The notes under the pieces were generated by a model, which worked only from the letters and a program-made list of their open reading frames with translations, had not been told where the DNA came from and did no database searches. From NCBI GenBank assembly GCA_003453735.1, contig DMNE01000215.1, positions 1 through 12,538 of the forward strand: 12,538 nucleotides of DNA, in the 5' to 3' direction. Positions 316 through 12,538 of this stretch are shown here, one piece after another; the first letter of the stretch is position 1; the number at the start of each line of letters is the position of its first letter. This DNA comes from Nitrospiraceae bacterium (GTDB lineage Bacteria > Nitrospirota > Thermodesulfovibrionia > Thermodesulfovibrionales > UBA9159). The translations under genes and the position numbers were made by a program.

Positions 316-2217
316 ATGAAAATTCGCAGTTTGTTACCGATTCTCATCATTTGCCTCTGCGGGGCGATAGCATATTGCAACAGTTTCGAAGTTCCTTTTC
401 ATTTCGATGACTTCTCGAACATTCAGGAAAACCCTCTCATCAAGCATACGGAATATCTTCTCGACCCTTCCGCGTTCTGTTCGCACGTAGACTCGCAGAG
501 CATTGACGCCGTCACGTGCGATTTTTTCACCAGAAGATACATTGGCTATCTTTCTTTTGCCGCCGATTATGCCGTTCATGACCTGGACGTCCGAGGATAC
601 CACATTGTAAACCTCGGAATTCACCTTGTAAATGGGATACTGCTCTATTTCCTGGTTATATTCGCCACTAAAACACCGGTGTTGAAAGACTCCCTGCTTA
701 AGGATTGCGGCGGGACATTGGCGCTCCTCGTGTCGCTCCTTTTTGTCTCGCATCCGGTCCAGACGCAGGCGATCACCTACATAGTGCAAAGGTTCGCATC
801 GCTTGCAACTCTCTTTTACCTGCTTTCCCTCGTGTTGTATGTCAAGGCGAGACTTTCGAAATCACTTAGGATGCATCGTTCCCTTTACGTGCTCTCATTC
901 GCCTCTGCACTGCTTGCGATGAAGACAAAGGAGACCGCTTTTACCCTCCCGATTATGGTAGCCATCTGGGAGTTCGCATTTTTTGAAGGGACTGTGAGGA
1001 CAAGGCTTTACCACCTTGTCCCCCTGTTGTTGACCATGCTTATCATACCTCTGGAAATGATCGGCATCCATAAGCCTCTCCATGAGATCATGGATGAAAT
1101 CGGCTCTGCATCGCGGGTCAAAACCGCTATGCCGCGGCTGGATTACCTGCTGACTCAGTTTCCAGTGATCCTAACTTATATCAGGCTGATATTCTTTCCT
1201 GTAAACCAGAACCTCGACTACGACTTCCCCGTGTATCATTCCTTTTTTATCCCCCGGGTCTACGGATCTTTTGCTGTTCTGGGCGTTATCTTCGGGCTCG
1301 GTATCTATTTTTGGCGTCGCGGCAGAAAAGGTGAGCCCTCCCTCAAACTGATCTCCATCGGCATAACCTGGTTTTTCGTAACTCTTTCTGTCGAATCCGG
1401 CGTCATTCCGATCGTGGACGTCATCTTCGAGCACAGGGTGTATCTCCCCTCTGCCGGGGCCTTTCTCTCTATCGCCACAGGTGCTGTCCTTTTGAAGCGG
1501 AAACTTGCTTTCAGATGGAAAGCGGCGGACAAAACGCTTTCCGTAATTAGTGTAGTTATTATCATATCATTGACTGCTGCCACACTGAATCGAAACACCG
1601 TCTGGCAAGATGATTTCACCCTCTGGGGCGATGTTATCAAAAAGAGCCCGGATAAGGCCAGGGGGTATAATAATTTAGGAAACGATTTTAGAGTAAGCGG
1701 CCGGTATGAACAGGCAGTTGATCTGCTGAAGAAGGCGCTGGAAAGAGATCCGAAGGATCTCAAAGCATATTTTGATCTGGGGCTCATCTACGTGGACCTC
1801 AGGCAATTTGACAAGGCAAAAGAGAATTTCAGCAGGGCGCTGGCGATCAACCCGAAGGCAGCTTACCTTTATAATAATCGCGGTAATGTCTACGGTGAAT
1901 TGAGGCAATACGGAAAGGCTATCGAGGATTATTCCCGGGCGATAGCGCTGTATCCTTATGACGCAGACTATTATTTCAACCGCGGTGTCGAGAGGGTGAG
2001 AACCAAAGAGTACGAGAAGGCCATCGCTGATTTTTCGGAGGCCATCGAACTCAATCCGGAACACTCAAGTGCGCTGCTGCAGCGGGGAATGACAGTCTAC
2101 TTGGTTTCCGGGGATATGTCGCATGCGCTGCAGGACTTCCGGAAAGCATGCCAGTTTGGCAGCAGGATGGCGTGTGATGTTCTTCGATCCGGACTGCAAG
2201 AAGGGGGAAAACGATGA
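316..2217 (+). CDS. TMTC-like GT-C membrane glycosyltransferase with C-terminal TPRs
   Basis: The 633-aa protein has a first membrane segment at residues 5-20, then the acidic DD pair (31-32, in HFDDFSNIQENP) expected in the first extracytoplasmic loop of GT-C enzymes of the PMT/TMTC type. RGYHIVNLGIHLVN (about 93-106) and HPVQTQAITYIVQR (146-159) are hallmarks of bacterial TMTC/DUF1736-type proteins. About ten hydrophobic segments follow to roughly residue 420. The linker RNTVWQDDFTLWGDVIKKSP leads into five TPRs at about 448-615. By family knowledge such proteins use lipid-linked sugars to O-glycosylate proteins on the outer face of the inner membrane; the acceptor here is unknown. The start is supported by AGGGGAG 7 nt upstream. 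The stop overlaps the ATG of a possible 24-codon ORF (ATGA). It may instead be a TPR-mediated scaffold without transferase activity. Confidence 0.85.
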   Translation: MKIRSLLPILIICLCGAIAYCNSFEVPFHFDDFSNIQENPLIKHTEYLLDPSAFCSHVDSQSIDAVTCDFFTRRYIGYLSFAADYAVHDLDVRGYHIVNLGIHLVNGILLYFLVIFATKTPVLKDSLLKDCGGTLALLVSLLFVSHPVQTQAITYIVQRFASLATLFYLLSLVLYVKARLSKSLRMHRSLYVLSFASALLAMKTKETAFTLPIMVAIWEFAFFEGTVRTRLYHLVPLLLTMLIIPLEMIGIHKPLHEIMDEIGSASRVKTAMPRLDYLLTQFPVILTYIRLIFFPVNQNLDYDFPVYHSFFIPRVYGSFAVLGVIFGLGIYFWRRGRKGEPSLKLISIGITWFFVTLSVESGVIPIVDVIFEHRVYLPSAGAFLSIATGAVLLKRKLAFRWKAADKTLSVISVVIIISLTAATLNRNTVWQDDFTLWGDVIKKSPDKARGYNNLGNDFRVSGRYEQAVDLLKKALERDPKDLKAYFDLGLIYVDLRQFDKAKENFSRALAINPKAAYLYNNRGNVYGELRQYGKAIEDYSRAIALYPYDADYYFNRGVERVRTKEYEKAIADFSEAIELNPEHSSALLQRGMTVYLVSGDMSHALQDFRKACQFGSRMACDVLRSGLQEGGKR

Positions 2218-2324: not shown

Positions 2325-2975
2325 ATGATAACAAGGCAGTATCAAAAAAGGTACAAGGAAATTTTTGAAGAGGTCCTCCTTGCAGCACCGAAAGGATATT
2401 TCGATGAAAGCGCGCTGCCCTCATATACCCATAACAACCGGTTAATGTCGTGGCTTTTTTGGAAGCGAATCGAGGCGGCTTTATCTCTTGCCGGAGACCT
2501 TCGTAACAAGTCCGTCCTGGATTTTGGCTGTGGCGGTGGAGTGACTTTTCGATATCTTGCAGAGCGGCAGTGCGAAATTGTCGGATGTGATAACCAGTTT
2601 CATCAACTGGCAAAAGATGTTTGCGCCAAGCTTGGCATCGTGGCACACATCCATCAGGACATCTCGGAGATCAGAGGTCGAAAATTCGATGTTATTTTTG
2701 CCCTCGATGTCCTCGAACACATTGAAGCGCCCGATCACATTATTGACAAATTTCTTACGCTGTCTCATGATAAAACTGCTGTGGTGCTCTCCGGTCCAAC
2801 GGAGAATATGTTCTATAGAATCGGCAGGAGGCTTGCTGGTTTTTCGGGACATTACCACCTGCGGAATATCTACGAGATAGAAAAGATGCTGAGTGCAAAA
2901 AAGCTCAAGAAGAAAGTGATGAGAAACTTCTACGGCCCTTTCCCCCTATTCAGAATCAGTTCCTGGACCGCATGA
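2325..2975 (+). CDS. Class I SAM-dependent methyltransferase
   Basis: The 216-aa soluble protein carries a Rossmann-fold methyltransferase core. Motif I is VLDFGCGGG at residues 64-72, the acidic end of strand 2 is IVGCDN (85-90), and the post-motif FDVIFALDVLEHI (121-133) has the DVLEH seen in Methyltransf_11/UbiE-like enzymes. Residues 1-55 form a helical N-terminal cap (ending in MSWLFWKRIE) that may bind substrate. The C-terminal part is basic (KKLKKKVMR). The substrate cannot be read from sequence; the position between two glycosyltransferase-like genes suggests a sugar, lipid or protein of the envelope (inference). The ATG at 2325 has only a weak RBS and is chosen because the frame is closed by a stop 37 nt upstream. 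Its end overlaps the next gene by 4 nt (ATGA), which implies translational coupling. Confidence 0.85.
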   Translation: MITRQYQKRYKEIFEEVLLAAPKGYFDESALPSYTHNNRLMSWLFWKRIEAALSLAGDLRNKSVLDFGCGGGVTFRYLAERQCEIVGCDNQFHQLAKDVCAKLGIVAHIHQDISEIRGRKFDVIFALDVLEHIEAPDHIIDKFLTLSHDKTAVVLSGPTENMFYRIGRRLAGFSGHYHLRNIYEIEKMLSAKKLKKKVMRNFYGPFPLFRISSWTA

Positions 2976-5404
2976 GCAAGGAAAAAGCAGAGGGCGGGGT
3001 AAACAGCGCACAGGGCAGCGGAGGGCGGATTCTCATAATCCTCTTTTTCCTATCAGTGCTGCTGCTCTCTATCACCAAGATTGAGGATACGGACACCTGG
3101 ACCCACCTGAGTTTCGGCCGGTGGATCTGGGAACATAAAGCTATCCCCCTGGTAGAGCCATTTATCGAAACAGGTAAGCCCTTCTCATACAACAACTGGC
3201 TCTTCGGATTTATGTTCTATGCGGCGTATCACTTTTTCGGTGTCTATGGGGTCATTCTCCTTAAGGCGATAACCATCTCTCTGGCCTTTTTCTTTCTTCT
3301 CGGCGATGCCCTGAGACCTTACAGGAGCACCATTGTCGCAACTCTCACAATGACGGGAGCCGTCTACCTCGCACGGTATCGCTTTATCGAGAGACCCGAT
3401 ATTTTTCTCATGCTGTTTCTGGCGTACAGTGTCTTCAGTCTCAATGCGTTCCTCTATGATGGGAAAAGCTACCTCTATGCCCTCCCCTTTGTTCATATGC
3501 TTTGGGCAAACAGCCACACGAGCCTGCCACTTATGGTGATCCCTTTCCTTGCGTTTCTTCTGGGGGGACTCCTGCAGATATACCTCAATAAGAAAGGGGT
3601 ACCCCTGCAAAGGCCACCCACGACGAGTCAGCTCAAGATCATCTTCTTCATCTTCATTGCCTCACTTGCCGCCTCACTCGTGAGCCCTTATTTTGTCGGC
3701 CAGTACACCCAGGGTGCGCAGGTGCTCTCTCAGAGCTGGTGGACGACCCGGATTGGCGAGCTCGTCAGGCCGGAAGAATGGCAAGTGAAAAGGGGAATCT
3801 ACCTCATGACTGTTGCGGTCCTCATGGGCTTTTTGCTCAACTACAGGCGCTTGTCTCTCATCGAATTCTTCCTCGTCATCCCCTTTCTGGCCCTCTCCTA
3901 TTCGGCTATCCGGTTCATTTTCCTTGGCGGGATCATAAGCGGACCGATCATCGCCCGAAATATGTCGGCATTCATCGAATCAAAGGCCTGGAAAGGGTTT
4001 TTCTCCAGGAAGCTGGCCCTGACAGGTGTGGGATTCTTCATTGTCCTGTTCATCGTGCTTTCGATGACAAAAACGATCTACTATTTTCACGTGGAGGAGA
4101 TCAAAGCCTTCGGCTTCGGAGTCAACTATTATTCGATCCCCGAGGATGCGTTGCGGTTTATGGACAAGTATGGGATATCGGGCAAGATTTTCAATGCTTT
4201 TGCCTGGGGTGGCTATATAACGTGGCGTGATTTTCCAAGGAGAAAGGCCTTTGTAGACGGCAGAGGGTTCCAGGACAGCTCGCTTCTCAACGCCCTTGAC
4301 ATGGCACCGGCGAGCAGTGTAGTCATGGACGAGTTACAGAAGCAGCATGGATTTGAAGCGGTTCTCATAGCCTATCCCCGAAAGTGGTCGGGGGTGGAGG
4401 GGATGCTGCCCGATATCGATGTTGCGTTTCCCCACCCTGGCTGGGCCCTCGTGTATTGGGACGACCTGTCACTGCTTTACCTCAGACGGGGCGGTCCCTA
4501 TGACAGCGTCATTGAGAAGAAACAATATAAGGTCATCAAACCTGCAAACGATATCACGGCTGGCAGACTGATTAACCAAGCTTACCGGGAGAAGCTTGTT
4601 CAGGAGCTGCTAAGGAATATCGAGGAAACGCAATCTTCCCGAGCATATATTGATCTGGGTTATGTCTACAATGAGAGCGGACGCTATAGTGAGGCAATTG
4701 CTGCCGGTAAAAAGGCGCTCCAACAGCAGAGAGTGAACGAGGCGGAGGCCCGCAAGGCCATTGCGTATGCTCAGCTTAGGCTGGGCAATACCGCTGAAGC
4801 TATAAAGGATTATAAGCGGGTAGTGTCGATCAACGATGATCCAACAAGCCTTTACAACCTTGGACTGGCTTACATGGAGAAAAATGACAAAAAGAAGGCG
4901 GTGGACTACCTCGAAAAGGCTTTGACCCTCGACAACAACCTCATTTCTGCATATCCCTACCTGATGCGGCTTTATGGCGAGTTGGGCATGAGCGATAAAC
5001 TAAAAGCGGCGAGCCAGGCGTACAGGTCAAATATGGATCTGCTGCAGGGCGAGCAGCATTTCCAGAAAGGTCTCAAGGCGTATCTCGAAAAAGACTATCG
5101 TACGGCTCTTGAAGAATTTCAGAAATCGCTCTCGGTCTATCCTGGCAATCCGGTGGTTTACAGCGATATCGCCTATGTATACTACGACCTGGACGAGCTT
5201 GATAATTCCTATGACTACCAGGCGAAGGCGATCGAGATCGATCCAAATTATGCGAACGCCCATTACGGGTTGGCGCTGGTGTATAAGAAAAGGGGTGACC
5301 GGAGATCAGCGAGGCAACACTGGGAAGAATATCTCAGAATCGCGCCAACAGGATATTATGCGAGAAAGGCGAATGAGGAGATTCAATCGCTCGGAAATCC
5401 TTGA
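2972..5404 (+). CDS. Polytopic GT-C-like membrane protein with C-terminal TPRs
   Basis: The 810-aa protein has an inner-membrane half and a TPR half. After a first membrane segment (about 19-34) comes EDTDTWTHLSFGRWIWEH, with an acidic DTD at 39-41, followed by a conserved-looking loop ending NNWLFGF (74-80). This is the arrangement of GT-C polyprenyl-phosphate-sugar transferases. RPD (141-143) and LWANSHTSLP (177-186) recur in related bacterial membrane proteins. About ten hydrophobic segments run to about residue 365. A soluble domain follows, with the signature GKIFNAFAWGGYITWRDFP and FVDGRGF (about 407-434). Residues 556-795 hold about six TPRs. It likely acts in envelope glycan or glycoprotein synthesis with the two upstream genes (inference). 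Its ATG sits inside the end of the methyltransferase gene. GT-C membership is less certain than for the gene at 316 because overall similarity to it is low outside the TPRs. Confidence 0.75.
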   Translation: MSKEKAEGGVNSAQGSGGRILIILFFLSVLLLSITKIEDTDTWTHLSFGRWIWEHKAIPLVEPFIETGKPFSYNNWLFGFMFYAAYHFFGVYGVILLKAITISLAFFFLLGDALRPYRSTIVATLTMTGAVYLARYRFIERPDIFLMLFLAYSVFSLNAFLYDGKSYLYALPFVHMLWANSHTSLPLMVIPFLAFLLGGLLQIYLNKKGVPLQRPPTTSQLKIIFFIFIASLAASLVSPYFVGQYTQGAQVLSQSWWTTRIGELVRPEEWQVKRGIYLMTVAVLMGFLLNYRRLSLIEFFLVIPFLALSYSAIRFIFLGGIISGPIIARNMSAFIESKAWKGFFSRKLALTGVGFFIVLFIVLSMTKTIYYFHVEEIKAFGFGVNYYSIPEDALRFMDKYGISGKIFNAFAWGGYITWRDFPRRKAFVDGRGFQDSSLLNALDMAPASSVVMDELQKQHGFEAVLIAYPRKWSGVEGMLPDIDVAFPHPGWALVYWDDLSLLYLRRGGPYDSVIEKKQYKVIKPANDITAGRLINQAYREKLVQELLRNIEETQSSRAYIDLGYVYNESGRYSEAIAAGKKALQQQRVNEAEARKAIAYAQLRLGNTAEAIKDYKRVVSINDDPTSLYNLGLAYMEKNDKKKAVDYLEKALTLDNNLISAYPYLMRLYGELGMSDKLKAASQAYRSNMDLLQGEQHFQKGLKAYLEKDYRTALEEFQKSLSVYPGNPVVYSDIAYVYYDLDELDNSYDYQAKAIEIDPNYANAHYGLALVYKKRGDRRSARQHWEEYLRIAPTGYYARKANEEIQSLGNP

Positions 5405-5490: not shown

Positions 5491-5543
5491 AGGGTACTGT
5501 GAAAATAAGAATGAGGATACGGCGCTTGTCATACCATGAGAGA

Positions 5544-6596
5544 ATGAGAAACAGACAGACTATACTGGCCTTGGCGTTGCTGCTTATCGGCATCAACGCG
5601 TGCGCTCCCGGTCCAAGTAAAAGGCAGCTTGAACTTGTGTGGCCCCTGCCACCTGATCAACCGAAGATCAAATTTGTGGACATCATCAGGACGAACCTTG
5701 ATCTGGAAAAAAAGGGTGGACTTGCTGAAGCGATCTTCGGAGAAGAAAGGGCAGAGGGATTCCAGAAACCCTATGGGGTCGCTGTTGATAAGGACGGTAA
5801 AATATACGTTACAGACATCAACAGGGTTTTCGTCTTGGATCTGAAAAAAAAGGACTACGATTTTATCGGCAATGAGCCGGGCGTCGGTCAGTTGAGAAAT
5901 GCCATCGGCATTGCAATCGCATCAGATGGCAGGGTCTTTGTAACGGACGTGTCCGCTGCCCGACTTTATGTATACCGAAACGGAAAGTATGCAGAGGCTA
6001 TTGGAGAAAAAGGTGAATTTGCAAGCCCCAGTGGAGTTGCCCTCGATGAAAAGAACGGGCTTATCTACGTAACAGACACAAGATACCACACGGTCAAGAT
6101 CTTCTCGCTGCTCGACTACAAGCACATCCGGGATATCGGGAAAAATGGATCAGGGATAGGCGAGTTTAATTTTCCGACCAACATCGCGGTCGATGCAGAG
6201 GGTAAGTTTTATGTGGTCGACACAGGCAATTTCCGGGTTCAGATTTTTGGGAAAGACGGCCAATTTATCAGAGCTATTGGAGTACCAGGCGATATGCCCG
6301 GCTCCTTTGCCCGGCCAAAGGGCATAGCGATTGATTCGGAAGAGCATATTTATGTAGTGGATACGGCATTTCAGAACTTTCAGATCTTCGATCAGACCGG
6401 AAAGATTCTGCTTGCTGTCGGTAGCGGCGGAACCGATCCCGGCCAATTCCTGCTTCCTGCCGGGATGACCATTGACGATCAGGACAAGATCTATGTTGTT
6501 AACCAGATACCCGGTACTGTGCAGATTTTTCAGTATCTGGGGGAGAAGTGGAAAGAAAAGATGGAGCAGACAGGTGAGGCGGCTGACAAGAAATAA
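5544..6596 (+). CDS. Six-bladed NHL-repeat beta-propeller lipoprotein (copy 1)
   Basis: The 350-aa protein has a lipoprotein signal peptide: basic MRNRQ, hydrophobic TILALALLLIGI, then INAC with the lipidated Cys at residue 20. Ala at +2 favours outer-membrane sorting by the E. coli rule. The mature start LVWPLPPDQPKIKF is shared with the second copy (LFWPGPPEKPRISY). Six NHL blades follow, each with a GxAxDxxGxIYVxD-type strand: KPYGVAVDKDGKIYVTD, NAIGIAIASDGRVFVTD, SPSGVALDEKNGLIYVTD, FPTNIAVDAEGKFYVVD, RPKGIAIDSEEHIYVVD and LPAGMTIDDQDKIYVVN. It ends FQYLG plus a lysine-rich tail. NHL propellers usually bind proteins or ligands; no catalytic residues are visible. Its partner is probably the cytochrome that follows. 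GTG 5499 and ATG 5511 are alternative in-frame starts, but 5544 gives a proper signal peptide. Confidence 0.9.
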   Translation: MRNRQTILALALLLIGINACAPGPSKRQLELVWPLPPDQPKIKFVDIIRTNLDLEKKGGLAEAIFGEERAEGFQKPYGVAVDKDGKIYVTDINRVFVLDLKKKDYDFIGNEPGVGQLRNAIGIAIASDGRVFVTDVSAARLYVYRNGKYAEAIGEKGEFASPSGVALDEKNGLIYVTDTRYHTVKIFSLLDYKHIRDIGKNGSGIGEFNFPTNIAVDAEGKFYVVDTGNFRVQIFGKDGQFIRAIGVPGDMPGSFARPKGIAIDSEEHIYVVDTAFQNFQIFDQTGKILLAVGSGGTDPGQFLLPAGMTIDDQDKIYVVNQIPGTVQIFQYLGEKWKEKMEQTGEAADKK

Positions 6597-6801
6597 CCAT
6601 GACGAAATCAGAGTCCTAACTGCTCTTGAGGTCGGTGGCTTACCGGGCAACCGTATAAACAGCCCAAAGCTAAGAAGCGAACTGTTCTTTGTTCTTAGGA
6701 TGTGTGAAAAGGCACTGGTAGAGCGTGCAATATGACACAATTTGCCAATAGGGGCAAGCAACAGGAAATGTAACTAGTTATTTTTTAGGTACTTACGAAC
6801 T

Positions 6802-6830
6802 TTGACTCGTTGGCATGTAATTTGTATGAC
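6802..6830 (+). promoter_or_regulatory. Overlapping sigma-70 and sigma-54-like promoter candidates for cytochrome 1
   Basis: TTGACT (6802-6807) is 17 nt from TATGAC (6825-6830), a fair sigma-70 promoter. Inside it lies TTGGCATGTAATTTGTA (6810-6826), close to the sigma-54 consensus YTGGCACG-N4-TTGCW. It has GG at 6812-6813 and GT at 6824-6825 with the required 10 nt between, but T for C in GGCAC and GT for GC. Only one of the two may be real. Either would give a leader of about 70 nt. Confidence 0.45.
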
Positions 6831-6889
6831 TAAATAGGAAAACGTAAGGTTTTACAGGGAAGAAGCTTCCCAAAAAAACCAAGAAGGAA

Positions 6890-6896
6890 GGAGGTG
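6890..6896 (+). promoter_or_regulatory. RBS that fixes the start of cytochrome 1
   Basis: GGAGGTG at 6890-6896 stands 9 nt before ATG 6906. The in-frame GTG at 6894 is part of this Shine-Dalgarno sequence and so is not the start. Confidence 0.85.
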
Positions 6897-6905
6897 AAAT
6901 TAGAG

Positions 6906-7688
6906 ATGAAGAAACTTATCGTACTTCTCCTGGGAGTTGCTATCTTGGCAATTGGAATATCAGCATTTGCGGGTATCTCGAGTACGAAGCACAACCTGAC
7001 TACCGCGGGCTTTTTCACGACCAAAACGACGGCCGCTATTTTCTCGAATCCCACAAATGCTAGTGACACGACGGTCATAACCGTTTGCAGCTTCTGCCAC
7101 ATACCTCACGGAGCCAATATAACAATCGCGGGAGCTCCTCTGTGGTCAAGAGGTACCCCCAATACAGCAGGCTATAGCGTTTATGGTTCCGGTTCAGCAG
7201 GCGGCACTTCAGGTCTGACCCTTGGTGGCACCCCTGTTGGTATCCCCGGGGCTCAATCGCTTACTTGTCTGAGCTGTCATGACGGGACGATATCGGTTGG
7301 TGCCATTTACAAGAATACTGTCCTGCTAACTGCTCCCATGACCGGTGATGTCAATGCAAATGGCATGCTCGTGAAACCTTCGGGGAATACCTCCTACAAC
7401 GCTGACTTCACTCAGGACCTTAGGAACGATCATCCGATCGGTCTTGTCTATGACTTTGGGTATCCGACCCCGCAAAATACGGCCGGTTTGTCTACCACTA
7501 TAAGTGTTTCAGGACCCCCCTTCTATGTCACGGTAGGCGGGAATAATGTGTTCCCGATCTATGGTGGTACTATAGGAGTGGGCACGCTGGAGTGTGCTTC
7601 ATGCCATGATCCGCACACAACGGCTCAACCGGATTTCCTTAGGGATGCCCCTACTACTATCTGTCAAGATTGTCACGTTAACAAGTAG
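6906..7688 (+). CDS. Exported tetraheme c-type cytochrome (copy 1)
   Basis: The 260-aa protein has a Sec signal peptide (MKKLIVLLLG... cleaved after AFA at about residue 22). Four CXXCH heme-c sites follow: CSFCH 61-65, CLSCH 121-125, CASCH 230-234 and CQDCH 253-257. Apart from the four heme-site His there are exactly four more: H29 (TKHNL), H68 (IPHG), H176 (NDHPIG) and H237 (DPHT). All eight Cys are in heme motifs. This is exactly the set needed for four bis-His hemes. The order KHNL, CxxCHxPH, CLSCHDGT, DHP, CxSCHDPH, FLR, CxxCH is typical of doubled-CXXCH cytochromes of dissimilatory metal reducers. Size and heme number resemble OmcE, a filament-forming cytochrome, but filament formation is inference. 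It is likely an electron carrier in the periplasm or at the cell surface. It follows an NHL lipoprotein and ends at a terminator. Confidence 0.93.
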   Translation: MKKLIVLLLGVAILAIGISAFAGISSTKHNLTTAGFFTTKTTAAIFSNPTNASDTTVITVCSFCHIPHGANITIAGAPLWSRGTPNTAGYSVYGSGSAGGTSGLTLGGTPVGIPGAQSLTCLSCHDGTISVGAIYKNTVLLTAPMTGDVNANGMLVKPSGNTSYNADFTQDLRNDHPIGLVYDFGYPTPQNTAGLSTTISVSGPPFYVTVGGNNVFPIYGGTIGVGTLECASCHDPHTTAQPDFLRDAPTTICQDCHVNK

Positions 7689-7721
7689 AATGACAGATTT
7701 CAAAATCGACTCTCAAGACCC

Positions 7722-7753
7722 AAGGGGTGGGCGATTCCCACCCCTTTCTATTT
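7722..7753 (+). terminator. Rho-independent terminator after cytochrome 1
   Basis: AAGGGGTGGG (7722-7731) and CCCACCCCTT (7737-7746) form a perfect 10-bp stem with a 5-nt loop CGATT, followed by the T-rich tail TCTATTT. It lies 34 nt after the cytochrome stop and separates this transcript from the one downstream. Confidence 0.9.
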
Positions 7754-8188
7754 GCTGTGTTTGTCTTTCCCCGGCATCACTGCTTTCCACCACTCCACCA
7801 ACAATACTGTTAAATGTCAAATTGTTTTACCGACAGTGTTGCGATAATATGAGAAATGAGCCGTAGTCTGGCATAAAACGTCAAAAAATTGTCAGCGATA
7901 GGAGTCACTTCCCGGCTATGAGCTAATCTCTTACTGTCTTTTGAGAAACCTCCCCTTGTTTTAAGCCATAAGGCTGTCTTAGTTGATAAGGGCACAGTAT
8001 TTGCTTGTGGTTATAGGATGACGAGACTAGCCCAAAGGAAGATCTTTGCGAAACGGATAACGGATATTTCAACCGAGACGCAAAAAGGGAGAAAAATTTC
8101 TTATAGTTCGTGTATAATTCCTTTTGTTTTACCCAATGGACGGACCACTGAGGAACAGAGGAGTCGTAGAAGGGCTAAAAATATTGGG
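7754..8188 (+). other. Long non-coding interval and leader between the two transcripts
   Basis: About 435 bp without a convincing gene. An open frame from ATG 8018 reads into the next gene, but its first 57 codons have no RBS, overlap the predicted transcription start and give an unlikely R/S-rich sequence. Visible elements are the sigma-54 site (7990-8005), TGTC-N13-GACA at about 7815-7838 as a possible activator site, and an inverted repeat TTTGCG/CGCAAA (8045-8050 and 8079-8084) in the presumed leader. TATAAT at 8113-8118 has no good -35 element. No riboswitch class was recognised. Confidence 0.5.
7990..8005 (+). promoter_or_regulatory. Sigma-54 promoter for the barrel / NHL / cytochrome 2 unit
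   Basis: GGGCACAGTATTTGCT matches the sigma-54 consensus YTGGCACG-N4-TTGCW at nearly every position. GG (7991-7992) and GC (8003-8004) have the required 10 nt between them, and both GGCAC and TTGCT are intact. Transcription would start near 8016. This implies control by an NtrC-type activator encoded elsewhere. Confidence 0.7.
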
Positions 8189-8539
8189 ATGAGTGCAACG
8201 CGCGGTGGTCGGCTTTTGATGGAAGTGCAACTGACCCTCATTGGTCTGTGCGGCTCTGCTGTCTCTAACGTCTCTGCGAAGGTCGTCGCGGACATCGGCA
8301 TGGAATCACATGGAGCGGTTGCCTATCAGTATTCTGAATATCCGCACCAATTCAAATGCGGCGATGTCGGCCTGATCAACCGCAAGCGGCTTGTCTTCAA
8401 GAACGTCAAAGAAAAGAGCGGAACTGATCTCGAAGATAAGCAGCTTGAAGAGAGAAAACATGCTATGCTCGAAAGACTCAGAAAAGAAATTCCTCTTGAG
8501 ACATACTTGGAAGTTAACTGTCCGCCCATGGCCCTCTGA
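8189..8539 (+). CDS. Small unrecognised, probably exported protein
   Basis: I do not recognise this 116-aa protein. With ATG 8189 it starts MSATRGGR, followed by a modest hydrophobic stretch (LTLIGLCGSAV) and VSA at about residue 30, a plausible but weak signal peptide. The middle (SHGAVAYQYSEYPHQFKCGD) has scattered His and Cys but no CXXCH. The second half is a charged helix (EKSGTDLEDKQLEERKHAML and LRKEIPLETYL) ending VNCPP. Codon choice and amphipathic content suggest genuine coding, at least from 8222 on. ATG 8219 and ATG 8018 are in-frame alternatives, and none has a strong RBS. It is the first gene after the sigma-54 promoter and ends 6 nt before the barrel gene, so it probably belongs to that operon. 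It could be a periplasmic accessory or assembly factor (guess). Confidence 0.5.
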   Translation: MSATRGGRLLMEVQLTLIGLCGSAVSNVSAKVVADIGMESHGAVAYQYSEYPHQFKCGDVGLINRKRLVFKNVKEKSGTDLEDKQLEERKHAMLERLRKEIPLETYLEVNCPPMAL

Positions 8540-8545
8540 AACACT

Positions 8546-10471
8546 ATGCCTGAGATGCATGATGATCATGGAAGGGGAGAGAAAAGACGAAGAGCAAAGT
8601 TGCGTTTCTGTTTATTGAAGCGATATGTGCTTTTCTTTGGAATTATTGTTGTCGTGGTGTTTATGCTGCAGATACCTCAAGCACAGGCCGTGTATTGGTT
8701 CTACGATTACGACCCCACAACTGTTTACAATCTTCACGGGCAGGTGGATCTCGACTATGAGAGGGTTTGGTACAAGAACTCTAACGCTGTAAGCATCTTC
8801 AGAAGCGGCATCACGCTTGGGCTCAGCGGTTTTATCGTTGACCGGAGGCTTGCACTCTTTGACATAGGCGGTTCCTTCAGTAACGGGATTGCAACAGGCA
8901 GCGACACGGTGAATGCTTATAGCATTAGTACACACGTGAGCCTCCTAAACGAGGCAGTACGGCGCGGTCTCCTGCAGTACTTCCCCCAACCAATTCGGCT
9001 GAGCTTTGCATACTCAGATGATGGTGAGGGTGGCCATAGCGTAAGCTATGGTCTGGGCCTCGGATATCATCGGCCCGGCATGCTTAGATTTTTTCAAAAT
9101 GGGAAGATTTTCTATTATGATGAGACAGGCAGGTCTTCGCAGCAGAAAACACAAGTTCAAAGTGACACTGACGAGAGCGGCAGGAAAGAGCAAGCCGTTG
9201 GGAAAGAGGGATTCTATCTCGCTTATCCTCTTGTGACCCTCGATTATGACAGAGGAACTTTCTCTGGGAGCGACGAATCCATCAGCACTGATACCATCGA
9301 CTTCCGTGCAGAGTCATACAGCAAATACGGCCAGTATTTGCTCGATTACCAGTATAATCGGTACAACGGCAGCGACACTCCGGAGCTCAACTACCAGCAT
9401 TTCGAGTTCGACGCAAACTTCAGGATTCCCGGAGCTGATAAGACGAGCAGGTTTGAATCCTGGAATTCCGTGATCGACGATAAAATATACTCCAGTAGTA
9501 CACTCAATGTGACGACTAATAATGTGTGGATGAAGTCACTCGGTCCCCAGCTCAAAGACAGTATCACACTCTCCGGGGGGGGGTACTACACGCAAAACAC
9601 TAATTTGTCCACATACAACCTAAGTACATCCGGACTTTACATGAAACAGCTCTCCGAACGCTTGCGCAACTCAATCTACTCTGGGGTCACGTACGAACAA
9701 AGCGACGGGACTTTTCATTCTGAAAGCATTAGTGACAGCGTGTGGTATCGAGTTGCTCCGGCACTTGAGTTATCAGCAATTGCCGGGGTTGGGAATGCGA
9801 CAAACGGTCCTGTATACAACGGTGGCGTTACGCTCGCCCTTACGAAAAGGATATACATCTCATTGGGTTATGATTACTCTGTAACCCAGTCGGCGTCAAC
9901 CGAGGAAGCGGTAACTCCCCCGGAGTTAACGCAGAACCCGGTAACCGTGGAAACGGTGGGAGGCAAGCAGACAGAACAACAGATATCTCTGAATTTGTCA
10001 GGAGCGATTGGGTATAATCTGAGCTTTACGGCTCAGAATTTCTATAGGATCACCGATACGTCTGGCACGGGAGGTTATACCGAAAAACAGCTCGACATGA
10101 GGGGAGACGTATACTGGGCTATCTTGGCGTACAGGCTTAGTCTCGGGTATGTATACGTATCAACCGACGAGAGTAATTTGGTACCCAGCAGAGTGTCCTC
10201 TACCGCGTTGCGTCTCACCCTGAGTCGATTTTTCGAGAGGAGGCGGCTGTTTTTGAGCATATCTGGGTACTATTTGTATAACAACGACGGTACGTGGACT
10301 TACTCCGTATATCCAATGGCTCTGTGGAATTATCGGATGGTCACAGTGAGTGCTGAATACCAGATGGTGAAGACCAACGCAATTGGCGAACTTACGGACA
10401 ACCGGTTCATTCTAAGGGTCACGAGGAAGATCGACTATGCTGTGAAGCCGTTTTTGGGCAGCAACCAGTGA
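8546..10471 (+). CDS. Outer-membrane beta-barrel protein, candidate electron-conduit porin
   Basis: The 641-aa protein has a long basic n-region (KRRRAK... KR), a hydrophobic core (VLFFGIIVVVVFML) and an AQA cleavage site near residue 48. The mature part is made of alternating polar and hydrophobic strands rich in Tyr, Ser, Gly and aromatic girdle residues, with Gly/Asp/Asn turns. Examples are WAILAYRLSLGYVYVST, RLFLSISGYYLYNNDG and RMVTVSAEYQMVKTNA, enough for roughly 20-26 strands. It has no Cys after the signal peptide, hence no heme site. Its size fits the porin of porin-cytochrome conduits, and two cytochrome genes lie near it. A structural or secretion barrel is possible instead. It has no MtrB-type CXXC. 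The start is uncertain (no clear RBS at 8546; ATG 8555 and TTG 8600 are alternatives). The gene contains a G9 tract. Confidence 0.8.
   Translation: MPEMHDDHGRGEKRRRAKLRFCLLKRYVLFFGIIVVVVFMLQIPQAQAVYWFYDYDPTTVYNLHGQVDLDYERVWYKNSNAVSIFRSGITLGLSGFIVDRRLALFDIGGSFSNGIATGSDTVNAYSISTHVSLLNEAVRRGLLQYFPQPIRLSFAYSDDGEGGHSVSYGLGLGYHRPGMLRFFQNGKIFYYDETGRSSQQKTQVQSDTDESGRKEQAVGKEGFYLAYPLVTLDYDRGTFSGSDESISTDTIDFRAESYSKYGQYLLDYQYNRYNGSDTPELNYQHFEFDANFRIPGADKTSRFESWNSVIDDKIYSSSTLNVTTNNVWMKSLGPQLKDSITLSGGGYYTQNTNLSTYNLSTSGLYMKQLSERLRNSIYSGVTYEQSDGTFHSESISDSVWYRVAPALELSAIAGVGNATNGPVYNGGVTLALTKRIYISLGYDYSVTQSASTEEAVTPPELTQNPVTVETVGGKQTEQQISLNLSGAIGYNLSFTAQNFYRITDTSGTGGYTEKQLDMRGDVYWAILAYRLSLGYVYVSTDESNLVPSRVSSTALRLTLSRFFERRRLFLSISGYYLYNNDGTWTYSVYPMALWNYRMVTVSAEYQMVKTNAIGELTDNRFILRVTRKIDYAVKPFLGSNQ
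9575..9583 (+). repeat. G9 homopolymer tract inside the barrel gene
   Basis: Nine consecutive G encode three Gly (SGGGYY) about residue 344 of the barrel. Gain or loss of one G would frameshift the remaining 300 or so residues. Such tracts in surface-protein genes are classic sites of slipped-strand phase variation. Here that is only a possibility. Confidence 0.85.
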
Positions 10472-10501
10472 ACAGTCACCGTTCATGCAGGGGGTAGGCG
10501 C

Positions 10502-11554
10502 GTGGTAAAAAAATATATCGATTGCAGGAGTGCTGGCACCCCTCTGCTGGCTCTTATGATTTTTATTGTTTCCTCCTGTGCGCCTTCTCGGGCCGTCATT
10601 GATCGGAGCGCTATGGATAAACTCTTCTGGCCCGGACCACCTGAAAAGCCGAGGATCAGTTACCTGTGGTCTGTGTCGGAGCTCTCCGAAACGACTCCCG
10701 GACGCATGCTCGGAATCTTTGCCGGGACGCCCGAATCCGAGACATCTGATCCCAGCTCCTCGCACCGGCTCTTGAGACCTTACAGCTGCTTTGTCGATGA
10801 AGCCGGTGACCTTTATATCACAGACACCGGTGCTTTCCGGGTGACCATAATCAGCACCAAGGAGGGGACATCGAGGAATATCCTGCGCGCGGGCGATGAG
10901 GAATTCCTCTCCCCGATCGGGGTCGTCGTCTTCAAGGGGAAACTCTATGTCAGCGACTCGTCACTGAAAAAGGTGTTCATCCTGGATAAGGGCGGGAAAC
11001 TCGTCGGGAAATTCGAGGGTGAGTTCGAGAGGCCCACCTCCCTGGCGCTTTCGGCTGAGACCGGCGTGATCTATGTAGCCGACACCCTTGCCCACCGGGT
11101 CTATCTTTACAGTCCCGAAGGGAAGCGGCTCGGAAACATCGGGAAACACGGCTCAGAAAAGGGAGAGTTTAACTATCCTACCCATCTCTGGGTGGACGGA
11201 CAGGGCAGACTCTATGTTACGGATTCGCTGAATTCCCGGATAGAGATTTTCTCTTCCCGGGGCGATTTTGAGGAGATGTTTGGCACCCTGGGAGACGCTC
11301 TCGGGAATCTCGATAAGCCGAAGGGAGTTGCCACAGACAGCGATGGAAACATATACGTAGTGGACTCGATCAATGATATGGTGAAGATTTTCGACAGAAG
11401 CGGTAGATTGCTCCTCGTCTTTGGACAGCAGGGGACGGGTTTTGGACAATTCTGGCTTCCTTCTGGTATCTTTATAGACAAGGCAAATGTCATTTACGTT
11501 GCCGATACCTATAACGGGCGATTACAAGCATTTCGGTACTTGGGGAGCAAGTGA
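10502..11554 (+). CDS. Six-bladed NHL-repeat beta-propeller lipoprotein (copy 2)
   Basis: At 350 aa it is the same length as copy 1 and clearly its paralogue. It starts at GTG with AGGGGG (10489-10494) 7 nt upstream and lies 30 nt after the barrel gene. The lipoprotein signal ends VSSC with the lipidated Cys at residue 26 and Ala at +2, favouring the outer membrane. LFWPGPPEKPRISY follows. The six blades are RPYSCFVDEAGDLYITD, SPIGVVVFKGKLYVSD, RPTSLALSAETGVIYVAD, YPTHLWVDGQGRLYVTD, KPKGVATDSDGNIYVVD and LPSGIFIDKANVIYVAD. It ends FRYLGSK, like the FQYLGEK of copy 1, but without the long lysine-rich tail. It is tightly linked (46 nt) to cytochrome 2, which supports a propeller-cytochrome partnership. 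A scaffold, cytochrome-binding or assembly role is likely but unproven. Confidence 0.92.
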   Translation: MVKKYIDCRSAGTPLLALMIFIVSSCAPSRAVIDRSAMDKLFWPGPPEKPRISYLWSVSELSETTPGRMLGIFAGTPESETSDPSSSHRLLRPYSCFVDEAGDLYITDTGAFRVTIISTKEGTSRNILRAGDEEFLSPIGVVVFKGKLYVSDSSLKKVFILDKGGKLVGKFEGEFERPTSLALSAETGVIYVADTLAHRVYLYSPEGKRLGNIGKHGSEKGEFNYPTHLWVDGQGRLYVTDSLNSRIEIFSSRGDFEEMFGTLGDALGNLDKPKGVATDSDGNIYVVDSINDMVKIFDRSGRLLLVFGQQGTGFGQFWLPSGIFIDKANVIYVADTYNGRLQAFRYLGSK

Positions 11555-11582
11555 AAGGCACTTCGTTTGGGCAAGGGATATT

Positions 11583-11590
11583 GAGGAGGT
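11583..11590 (+). promoter_or_regulatory. RBS that fixes the TTG start of cytochrome 2
   Basis: GAGGAGGT at 11583-11590 lies 10 nt before TTG 11601. The only upstream ATG in this frame (11487) lies inside the preceding gene and would put about 38 polar residues before the signal peptide, so TTG is the better start. Confidence 0.75.
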
Positions 11591-11600
11591 TCCGTCGGAT

Positions 11601-12365
11601 TTGAAAAAAACCGTTTTTTTAATCGCTCTTTGTCTCGCGTCCCTGCTCGGATGCTTCGCAACTATGCTCCATGCGAGCATCATGACCACTAAGCACAATC
11701 TTTCGACAAGCGGTCCGGGTCCGGTTAAAGCGACTGGCGAACAGAGGGTATGTGTGTTCTGTCATACGCCTCACAACGCAATCGCTCCGACAGAAGGGGT
11801 GAGCGTACCGATCTGGAATCACTCACTGAGCATTGCGCAATACACGCTCTATGAGAGCCCGACACTTCTGAGCCCGACTAGTCCCACGATCAGGCCTGAC
11901 GGGGCTTCTCGGCTCTGTCTGAGTTGCCATGACGGAACGGTCGGCATTGGTGCGGTGGTGAACACAGGCATAACCCAAAACACGATATCGATGCTTGGCA
12001 CCGGTGCTAACGGTGTCCTCCCCACCGGTGCATCGAATCTCGGGACCGACTTGAGCGGCCACCATCCGGTGTCGATCGAGGTTAACAATTCGTTGATCAA
12101 TGACAAAGGCACTCAATGTACCAACAACCTGGTATCGTGGAGGGTCTGCTTGCCTCTGCCTGGTACACTGGTGAAGTTAAGCCGCACAAGAAATAGATAC
12201 GGTTCGCAATCTACGGGTATGGGAGTACAGTGTACGTCATGCCATGACGCTCATGACGATCGCAGCCCTGGGACGAGCTTATTTCTGCGAGTTGGCGACA
12301 AAAACAATATCGATTCTCTCTGCATGTCATGCCACCAGGACTGTTCTCAAGAGTGCCCTAAATGA
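11601..12365 (+). CDS. Exported tetraheme c-type cytochrome (copy 2)
   Basis: The 254-aa protein starts at TTG and has a signal peptide (KKTVFLIALCLASLLG..., cleaved after LHA at about 25). The heme-c motifs are CVFCH 51-55, CLSCH 106-110, CTSCH 211-215 and CMSCH 241-245. Candidate distal ligands H32 (TKHNL), H58 (TPHN), H155 (HHPV) and H218 (DAHD) align with those of copy 1, giving four bis-His hemes. H74 and H154 are extra. Unlike copy 1 it has four additional Cys outside heme sites: C173 and C183 in an insert between hemes 2 and 3, and C248 and C252 at the C-terminus (DCSQEC). These could form disulfides or bind metal. It shares the CLSCHDGT and FLR landmarks with copy 1. It is in an operon with the NHL gene before it, and its stop overlaps an upstream alternative ATG (12362) of the next gene. 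Confidence 0.92.
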   Translation: MKKTVFLIALCLASLLGCFATMLHASIMTTKHNLSTSGPGPVKATGEQRVCVFCHTPHNAIAPTEGVSVPIWNHSLSIAQYTLYESPTLLSPTSPTIRPDGASRLCLSCHDGTVGIGAVVNTGITQNTISMLGTGANGVLPTGASNLGTDLSGHHPVSIEVNNSLINDKGTQCTNNLVSWRVCLPLPGTLVKLSRTRNRYGSQSTGMGVQCTSCHDAHDDRSPGTSLFLRVGDKNNIDSLCMSCHQDCSQECPK

Positions 12366-12370
12366 AACCG

Positions 12371-12377
12371 AGGGGAG
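12371..12377 (+). promoter_or_regulatory. RBS for the 3'-terminal partial gene
   Basis: AGGGGAG at 12371-12377 lies 8 nt before ATG 12386. This favours that start over ATG 12362, which overlaps the cytochrome stop and has no RBS of its own. Confidence 0.65.
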
Positions 12378-12385
12378 TGATAGGA

Positions 12386-12538
12386 ATGCGCCGGGTGAAA
12401 TATAGTAATCGTGATTGCGAAGGGTATGGCAGGAGAAGACCGCTTACATGGTTACAGTGTGCCGGGTGCCTTTTTTTCGCCATATTCATCTTTTCCTTGA
12501 CGACCGCCCTAGCCGCTACCCCTACGCACCTTGACAGG
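12386..12538 (+). CDS. Start of an exported protein, truncated by the window edge
   Basis: Only 51 codons are present. They encode a long basic n-region (MRRVKYSNRD... GRRRP), a hydrophobic core (CLFFAIFIFSLTTALA) and a likely signal peptidase I site at ALA before ATPTHLDR. The protein is therefore exported, and it lies in the same operon as cytochrome 2. The family cannot be told from this fragment; another propeller, cytochrome or barrel component would fit the context. Confidence 0.75.
   Translation, partial: MRRVKYSNRDCEGYGRRRPLTWLQCAGCLFFAIFIFSLTTALAATPTHLDR

Follow-up and report, generated by a model that had tools for sequence, protein, structure and literature searches.

Two matched propeller–cytochrome pairs around one outer-membrane barrel form a probable OmcE-type nanowire locus in a Nitrospiraceae bacterium

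What is built by a locus in which two similar gene pairs, each encoding a propeller lipoprotein with NHL repeats and a tetraheme cytochrome, flank a single outer-membrane β-barrel? This arrangement occurs in a 12,538-nucleotide stretch of DNA from a Nitrospiraceae bacterium (hereafter, the window), which is the first part of a 14,252-base contig (DMNE01000215.1; C241 in our numbering) in a 4.66-Mb draft genome. A preliminary description, made from the sequence alone, had seen in it a dedicated surface electron-transfer apparatus and knew of no named system with this layout. The present study supports the former as the appearance of the locus, the neighborhood being conserved and the propeller and cytochrome trees co-varying, and contradicts the latter: the cytochromes are relatives of OmcE, the order propeller–OmcE–barrel recurs in Desulfuromonadia, and helper proteins of similar classes have been proposed for the osc operon. 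Taken together, the analyses indicate that this is probably an OmcE-type cytochrome nanowire locus.

All five genes lie on the + strand and, as first described, a propeller lipoprotein gene followed by a tetraheme cytochrome gene stands on either side of the outer-membrane barrel; the upstream pair is called A and the downstream pair B here. The earlier reading had overlooked an isomerase remnant, a 7-heme gene, and two upstream membrane proteins with tetratricopeptide repeats (TPRs). In phmmer searches, the top PDB match of both cytochromes is 7TFS (Table 1), and the alignments span nearly the whole chain (query residues 10-261 of cytochrome A and 7-246 of cytochrome B). The PDB table labels 7TFS merely “Cytochrome c”; the entry is OmcE, from which tetraheme nanowires of Geobacter are built (PMC12954529). 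The next match for both is 9YUQ, a multiheme cytochrome. That entry comprises 16 chains titled “putative multiheme cytochrome c,” homologous to cytochromes A and B. The four CXXCH motifs are unchanged across 18 aligned sequences, cytochromes A and B included, in which three His residues (29, 176, and 237 in the numbering of cytochrome A) never vary and a fourth, His 68, is retained in at least 90%; these four residues are candidate distal heme ligands. In OmcE and OmcS wires, an interfacial heme receives one His from each subunit (PMC12954529, PMC12307469). Of the heme-motif order, spacing, and ligand positions said to be shared by cytochromes A and B, the candidate ligand positions do align, and the spacings are similar rather than equal (60/109/23 versus 55/105/30). 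By sequence, then, cytochromes A and B are relatives of OmcE. They belong to a large family (5311 proteins at E ≤ 0.001 among 6805 candidates), and the seven best named matches of cytochrome B comprise six titled Nitrospirae or Nitrospiraceae and one titled Bacterium BMS3Bbin05.

The paralogy claimed for both gene types goes beyond chance in whole-genome searches, in which cytochrome B matches cytochrome A alone (E = 9.7e-12, 34% identity) and propeller B matches propeller A (E = 2e-57, 37% identity), with C328 as its sole other match (E = 4.8e-8). Several finer likenesses that had been listed for the propellers proved looser. The entry motifs (WPLPPDQPKI in propeller A, WPGPPEKPRI in propeller B) and end motifs (FQYLGEK and FRYLGSK) are indeed present in both and are family-wide rather than peculiar to this pair: a lipobox-like Cys is found in 45 of 47 propellers, strict WPxPPxxP in 24, and FxYL near the end in 34, and the Cys, the Trp-Pro, and two more prolines are unchanged in all 16 aligned propellers. 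The equal length of 350 residues hinges on the start chosen, since an in-frame GTG at 5499 would extend propeller A to 365 residues, and the endings are out of register, propeller A continuing for 15 residues beyond FQYLGEK and propeller B stopping at FRYLGSK. Both proteins score far above the Pfam NHL cut-off of 20 bits, and six stretches are detected in propeller B and five in propeller A, six blades having been proposed for each.

Conservation of the layout was assessed with gene labels on 101 sequences, of which the window is one, 20 were retrieved with the barrel, and 80 are loci retrieved with cytochrome B and kept from a genome scan in which at least 586 stretches fit a pattern and at least 500 encode a relative. 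The distinct tetraheme OmcE-like genes number 107; the upstream neighbor is on the same strand for 85 and on the opposite strand for 12, and 10 lie at an edge. A propeller gene stands directly upstream on the same strand in 52 of the 107, as against 8 of 558 unlabeled genes, a control set that still contains duplicates; none of the loci was fetched by a propeller. Once 5 duplicates had been removed, 36 distinct barrel loci remained, the window included, and the neighborhood is conserved across them. A propeller–cytochrome pair follows the barrel in 30 of the 36 when any OmcE-related cytochrome is accepted, whatever its heme number, and pairs occupy both sides in 17, the upstream side being scored by a looser rule. 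The isomerase is next to the barrel in 26 (counting the window's remnant), and the 7-heme gene lies at most 5 genes downstream of it in 24; five loci are flagged near their upstream edge and three near their downstream edge. In L065, L070, L077, L084, and L096, the barrel sits between a tetraheme/propeller pair, in varying order, and a propeller with a 10- or 11-heme OmcE-related protein. This form of the pair–barrel–pair plan is found in some metagenome-assembled genomes titled Deltaproteobacteria or Persephonella, and the larger cytochrome is perhaps a protein of a longer wire or of a wire tip.

The histories of propellers and cytochromes were compared in trees of 47 pairs, 5 of 52 having been removed beforehand for odd propeller length. 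Pair A of the window falls in the same eight-row clade in both trees (Shimodaira–Hasegawa-like approximate likelihood ratio test support of 92 for propellers and 100 for cytochromes), and pair B falls in groups of 25 rows in the propeller tree and 28 in the cytochrome tree, the latter taking in three long Acidobacteriota branches. A recent local duplication of the pair was considered and rejected, because each type clusters with the same type from other genomes and not with its neighbor. In seven loci with two pairs, the path-length correlations are 0.77 and 0.77 for cognate partners versus 0.49 and 0.26 for swapped ones, and of the 128 within-locus swaps, the true pairing scores best. The two trees thus co-vary along cognate lines. 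What this upholds of the proposal that every cytochrome has its own propeller is their co-inheritance, which hints that the cognate proteins may also be physical partners.

A similar plan surrounds OmcE and OmcE-like genes in Desulfuromonadia, the class, searched here, to which a metagenome-assembled genome titled Desulfuromonadales belongs. One OmcE gene, which scores 212.6 bits to 7TFS, is arranged in the order 10-heme cytochrome, 8-heme cytochrome, propeller, OmcE, 748-residue protein. We regard this last protein and others of its family as barrels in view of their sequence (10 aligned), a C-terminal Phe, and a profile comparison with the window's barrel. The direct order propeller–OmcE–barrel occurs in 8 of 20 OmcE-like loci (L205, L206, L208, L213, L215, L216, L220, and L221), and several of the other 12 carry very long NHL proteins in place of the usual propeller. 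In L203, L204, and L218, an NHL protein of ~1000 residues and an OmcE-like protein accompany giant cytochromes with 57, 58, and 35 CXXCH motifs. The order isomerase, propeller, OmcE-like, 7-heme is seen in 7 of 20 isomerase loci hand-picked from the best matches, without a labeled barrel; the profile of the window's barrel also leaves the 748-residue barrels of this class unlabeled. No barrel-like gene is found among the genes listed for L183, L185, L186, and L194, and the neighbors listed for these isomerase loci include tig-, clpP-, clpX-, and lon-like genes.

How does the window relate to systems already known? Its cytochromes are homologous to OmcE along their length, and the Desulfuromonadia OmcE gene likewise has a propeller upstream and a barrel downstream. 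However, that locus has one pair, preceded by the 10-heme and 8-heme cytochromes, whereas in the window two divergent pairs flank the barrel, and the locus also has a 7-heme gene and a site for an isomerase gene. For OmcS wires, an osc (omcS-companion) operon has been proposed in which OscH serves folding, OscE/F/G secretion, and OscD morphology (PMC13194489). OmcS itself is described as a hexaheme protein without sequence similarity to OmcE (PMC9473688, PMC12307469). Compared by class of protein, the osc helpers (propeller, isomerase, channel) are similar to those of the window, which has two propellers, OscD being presumably the propeller and OscH the isomerase. In contrast to osc, the window encodes OmcE-like tetraheme cytochromes and no OmcS hexaheme cytochrome, a single barrel where osc has three proteins for secretion, and only a remnant of the isomerase; we do not class it as an osc operon because its isomerase has decayed and its cytochromes are OmcE-like. 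A six-bladed propeller and a prolyl isomerase also form a conserved core with two multiheme cytochromes in partner bacteria of anaerobic methanotrophic archaea and in Desulfovibrio ferrophilus (PMC5539420, PMC8322314), but the core cytochromes of the methanotroph partners have 16 and 26 hemes. One described locus holds an OmcE homolog with two NHL proteins (PMC12016550), and a passage on OmcS still calls the exit and anchoring of cytochrome wires speculative (PMC12307469). The two-pair layout is not described in the titles or abstract starts searched, a search outside which most subscription papers fall. Given the kinship with OmcE and the same order around an OmcE gene, we therefore place the window among the known OmcE/osc-type nanowire systems, as a new variant, and not in a class without a name.

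Are the two pairs equivalent? It is conceivable, if rather unlikely, that wires are built from cytochrome B alone and that the more divergent cytochrome A acts as a cap, adaptor, or periplasmic feeder, making the pairs unequal. Cytochrome A has the weaker match to OmcE (77.5 versus 103 bits), a downstream pair is present in 30 of the 36 barrel loci as against 17 with pairs on both sides, and type A occupies 8 tree rows as against 25 (propeller) or 28 (cytochrome) for type B. A terminator-like hairpin also follows cytochrome A, suggestive by position alone, as the window has 5 such sites versus 6.1 expected in shuffles. However, cytochrome A retains four heme motifs, four candidate distal His residues, and its own matched propeller, and some of the loci lacking an upstream pair are cut off by the end of a contig or locus (5 of the 36 are flagged). 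Separately, TGGCATG-N4-TTGTA, seen by eye at 6811-6826, 5′ of cytochrome A, resembles a sigma-54 promoter.

The barrel invites a different reading of the locus. Its AlphaFold2 model (mean predicted local distance difference test score [pLDDT] 85.6) has 28 strands of at least 9 residues. The sequence matches no Pfam family and its best NCBIfam match has only E = 0.2; its profile finds nothing credible among PDB sequences (best E 0.19) and 5 matches in a protein database, none carrying a function name. The 50 matches listed by Foldseek include general outer-membrane barrels, with MtrB of the Mtr complex (6r2q_B) third by E-value and first by TM-score (0.41). A Pcc/Mtr-like conduit, in which an MtrB-like sheath would be plugged by the 7-heme cytochrome and the tetraheme proteins would be surface reductases or relays, would fit that score, the closeness of 28 strands to the 26 of MtrB, the general resemblance to Pcc/Mtr loci in having a large outer-membrane barrel beside multiheme cytochromes, and the presence of the 7-heme gene at most 5 genes downstream of the barrel in two-thirds of barrel loci (24 of 36). 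We nevertheless consider it improbable: MtrB is absent among the 50 matches listed by a second structure aligner, whose best matches, tied in Z, are general porins and TonB-dependent receptors; the tetraheme proteins are relatives of OmcE by sequence, a difference from Pcc/Mtr; and, as a weak point given the profile's failure to label the 748-residue barrels, the seven Desulfuromonadia isomerase loci have the propeller, OmcE-like, and 7-heme genes without a labeled barrel. A conduit and a wire may also coexist in one locus. Equally doubtful is the notion that the propellers are mineral- or polymer-binding surface lipoproteins merely co-regulated with the cytochromes and not their assembly partners, for although NHL proteins in a locus with an OmcE homolog could bind mineral (PMC12016550), the cognate pairing with each cytochrome type suggests a link to cytochrome, not mineral.

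Two further genes bear on the reading of the window as an OmcE-type nanowire locus. Just before the barrel, where many relatives hold an intact isomerase gene, the window retains recognizable C-terminal pieces of one only (~8303-8515), ~220 residues at the N-terminal end and a segment farther inside having been lost. The remnant is detected with 7 intact relatives in tblastn (best E = 1.3e-11) and with their profile (41.3 bits), and an intact relative of 342 residues contains Rotamase (PPIC) and SurA_N domains. An intact isomerase gene in the window was ruled out, as the seven relatives match the C-terminal part only; judged from these alignments, the gene has decayed. The best other PPIC isomerase of the genome (C243, 30% identity) is encoded on a 14.4-kb stretch that has no heme protein, and its neighbors there resemble polysaccharide genes by sight. 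At the other end, the 7-heme gene starts at 12362, overlapping the stop of cytochrome B, and ends at 13455 of the contig, interrupted just past the window end by two N (12539-12540) across which we infer the join. Its product is 59% identical (E = 8.4e-125) to a protein, also of 7 hemes, that follows cytochrome B in L059.

Several observations weigh against this reading. Cytochromes A and B are only 30% identical in the multiple alignment, and the AlphaFold model of cytochrome A has a mean pLDDT of 39.7. The barrel is far from universal, being present in 20 of 149 genomes (its own included), and 19 of the 36 barrel loci lack pairs on both sides, with 8 of the 36 flagged near a locus edge. Over all 47 pairs, the path-length correlation is r = 0.47, against a maximum of 0.41 in 1000 permutations, and it reaches 0.79 once seven long-branch rows are set aside. 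The swap test omits an eighth two-pair locus, L085, from Acidobacteriota with long branches, and with seven loci and related sequences, shared ancestry accounts for part of the correlations. Of the isomerase, which belongs to a helper class put forward for OmcS wires, the window has only a remnant. Finally, the comparison of the window's barrel profile with that of the 748-residue family (probability 95.4, E = 1.7e-8, 261 columns) was run without an unrelated barrel as control, and unrelated barrel families can also resemble one another.

An OmcE-type nanowire locus could nonetheless work as follows, surface location and electron direction being part of the proposal. Cytochromes A and B would be secreted as tetraheme subunits that stack, like OmcE, into filaments with insulated heme chains. 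The 28-strand barrel would provide their outer-membrane exit, or exit and anchor combined, and each propeller lipoprotein, positioned beside the barrel at the outer membrane, would help its cognate cytochrome to assemble, to be anchored, or to take its shape. The 7-heme protein would pass electrons into the wire base or form that base, and a general periplasmic isomerase presumably stands in for the decayed one.

Table 1. Features of the window, with coordinates and the evidence for each
Feature	Coordinates	Strand	Evidence
Propeller lipoprotein A (NHL repeats)	5544..6596	+	Lipobox Cys in ...GINAC; Pfam NHL 121 bits, 5 stretches
Tetraheme OmcE-like cytochrome A	6906..7688	+	7TFS E = 1e-20, 77.5 bits; four CXXCH
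Terminator-like hairpin 3′ of cytochrome A	7722..7746	+	Consensus scan
Open reading frame with remnant of SurA-like PPIC peptidyl-prolyl isomerase gene	8018..8539	+	tblastn and profile of relatives
Outer-membrane β-barrel, 641 residues	8546..10471	+	AlphaFold2, 28 predicted strands
Propeller lipoprotein B (NHL repeats)	10502..11554	+	Lipobox Cys in ...VSSC; Pfam NHL 99 bits, 6 stretches
Tetraheme OmcE-like cytochrome B, TTG start	11601..12365	+	7TFS E = 1.9e-28, 103 bits
7-heme cytochrome gene, 5′ part, crosses window end	12362..12538	+	59% identity to L059 7-heme protein
Multi-spanning membrane protein, C-terminal TPRs	2972..5404	+	Family recurring beside OmcE-like clusters
Membrane protein, C-terminal TPRs	316..2217	+	Kin of the 2972 protein by iterated profile

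Upstream of the five-gene run lie the two membrane/TPR proteins and a methyltransferase. The family of the 2972-5404 protein has 17 invariant columns among 13 aligned members, including Asp 41, with a near-invariant His four residues on, and two residues, Asp and Arg, of an Asp-Gly-Arg farther along. Its membrane part reaches the cut-off of no family in Pfam or NCBIfam, and the 60 PDB matches listed for the family profile (A4) all fall on the TPR end. For the 316-2217 protein, the membrane part has no Pfam match and the whole protein no PDB match; relatives occur in L045, L053, L206, L211, L213, and L043, and the protein may be described as “TMTC-like.” The family of the 2972-5404 protein yielded at least 79 matches, corresponding to at least 70 genes in 34 genomes. 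Within the bacterium's own order, 14 of at least 54 family genes have an OmcE-like gene no more than 3 kb away, as against 0.33 expected by length; 19 genomes of the order were found to have the family, and 11 of these show such proximity. In Desulfuromonadia, only 1 of at least 16 family genes is near one. The 13 seed genes, themselves chosen near clusters, contribute part of the proximity signal; when they are excluded, 6 of at least 57 genes lie within 10 kb, where at most 0.85 would be expected for all 70.

OmcE and OmcS show surface glycosylation, described as “extensive” in the case of OmcE, which the sugars are thought to insulate (PMC9473688), and in the parts of the literature searched we saw no enzyme assigned to OmcE glycosylation. 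By motif and topology, the 2972-5404 protein appears GT-C-like, and because OmcE and OmcS are glycosylated and the family adjoins OmcE-like genes, a GT-C-like wire glycosyltransferase is a fair hypothesis for its role. The combined proposal, that the locus sends two different tetraheme wires, or a single mixed one, through a shared barrel with a dedicated propeller for each, and that the membrane/TPR family glycosylates OmcE-type wires, is offered as a speculative one that we think unlikely to hold in full. Two matched propeller–cytochrome pairs around one barrel nevertheless constitute a natural swap test of propellers as specific assembly factors, and the membrane/TPR family beside these clusters, the freshest lead to come from the locus, provides a concrete candidate for the glycosylation of cytochrome wires.

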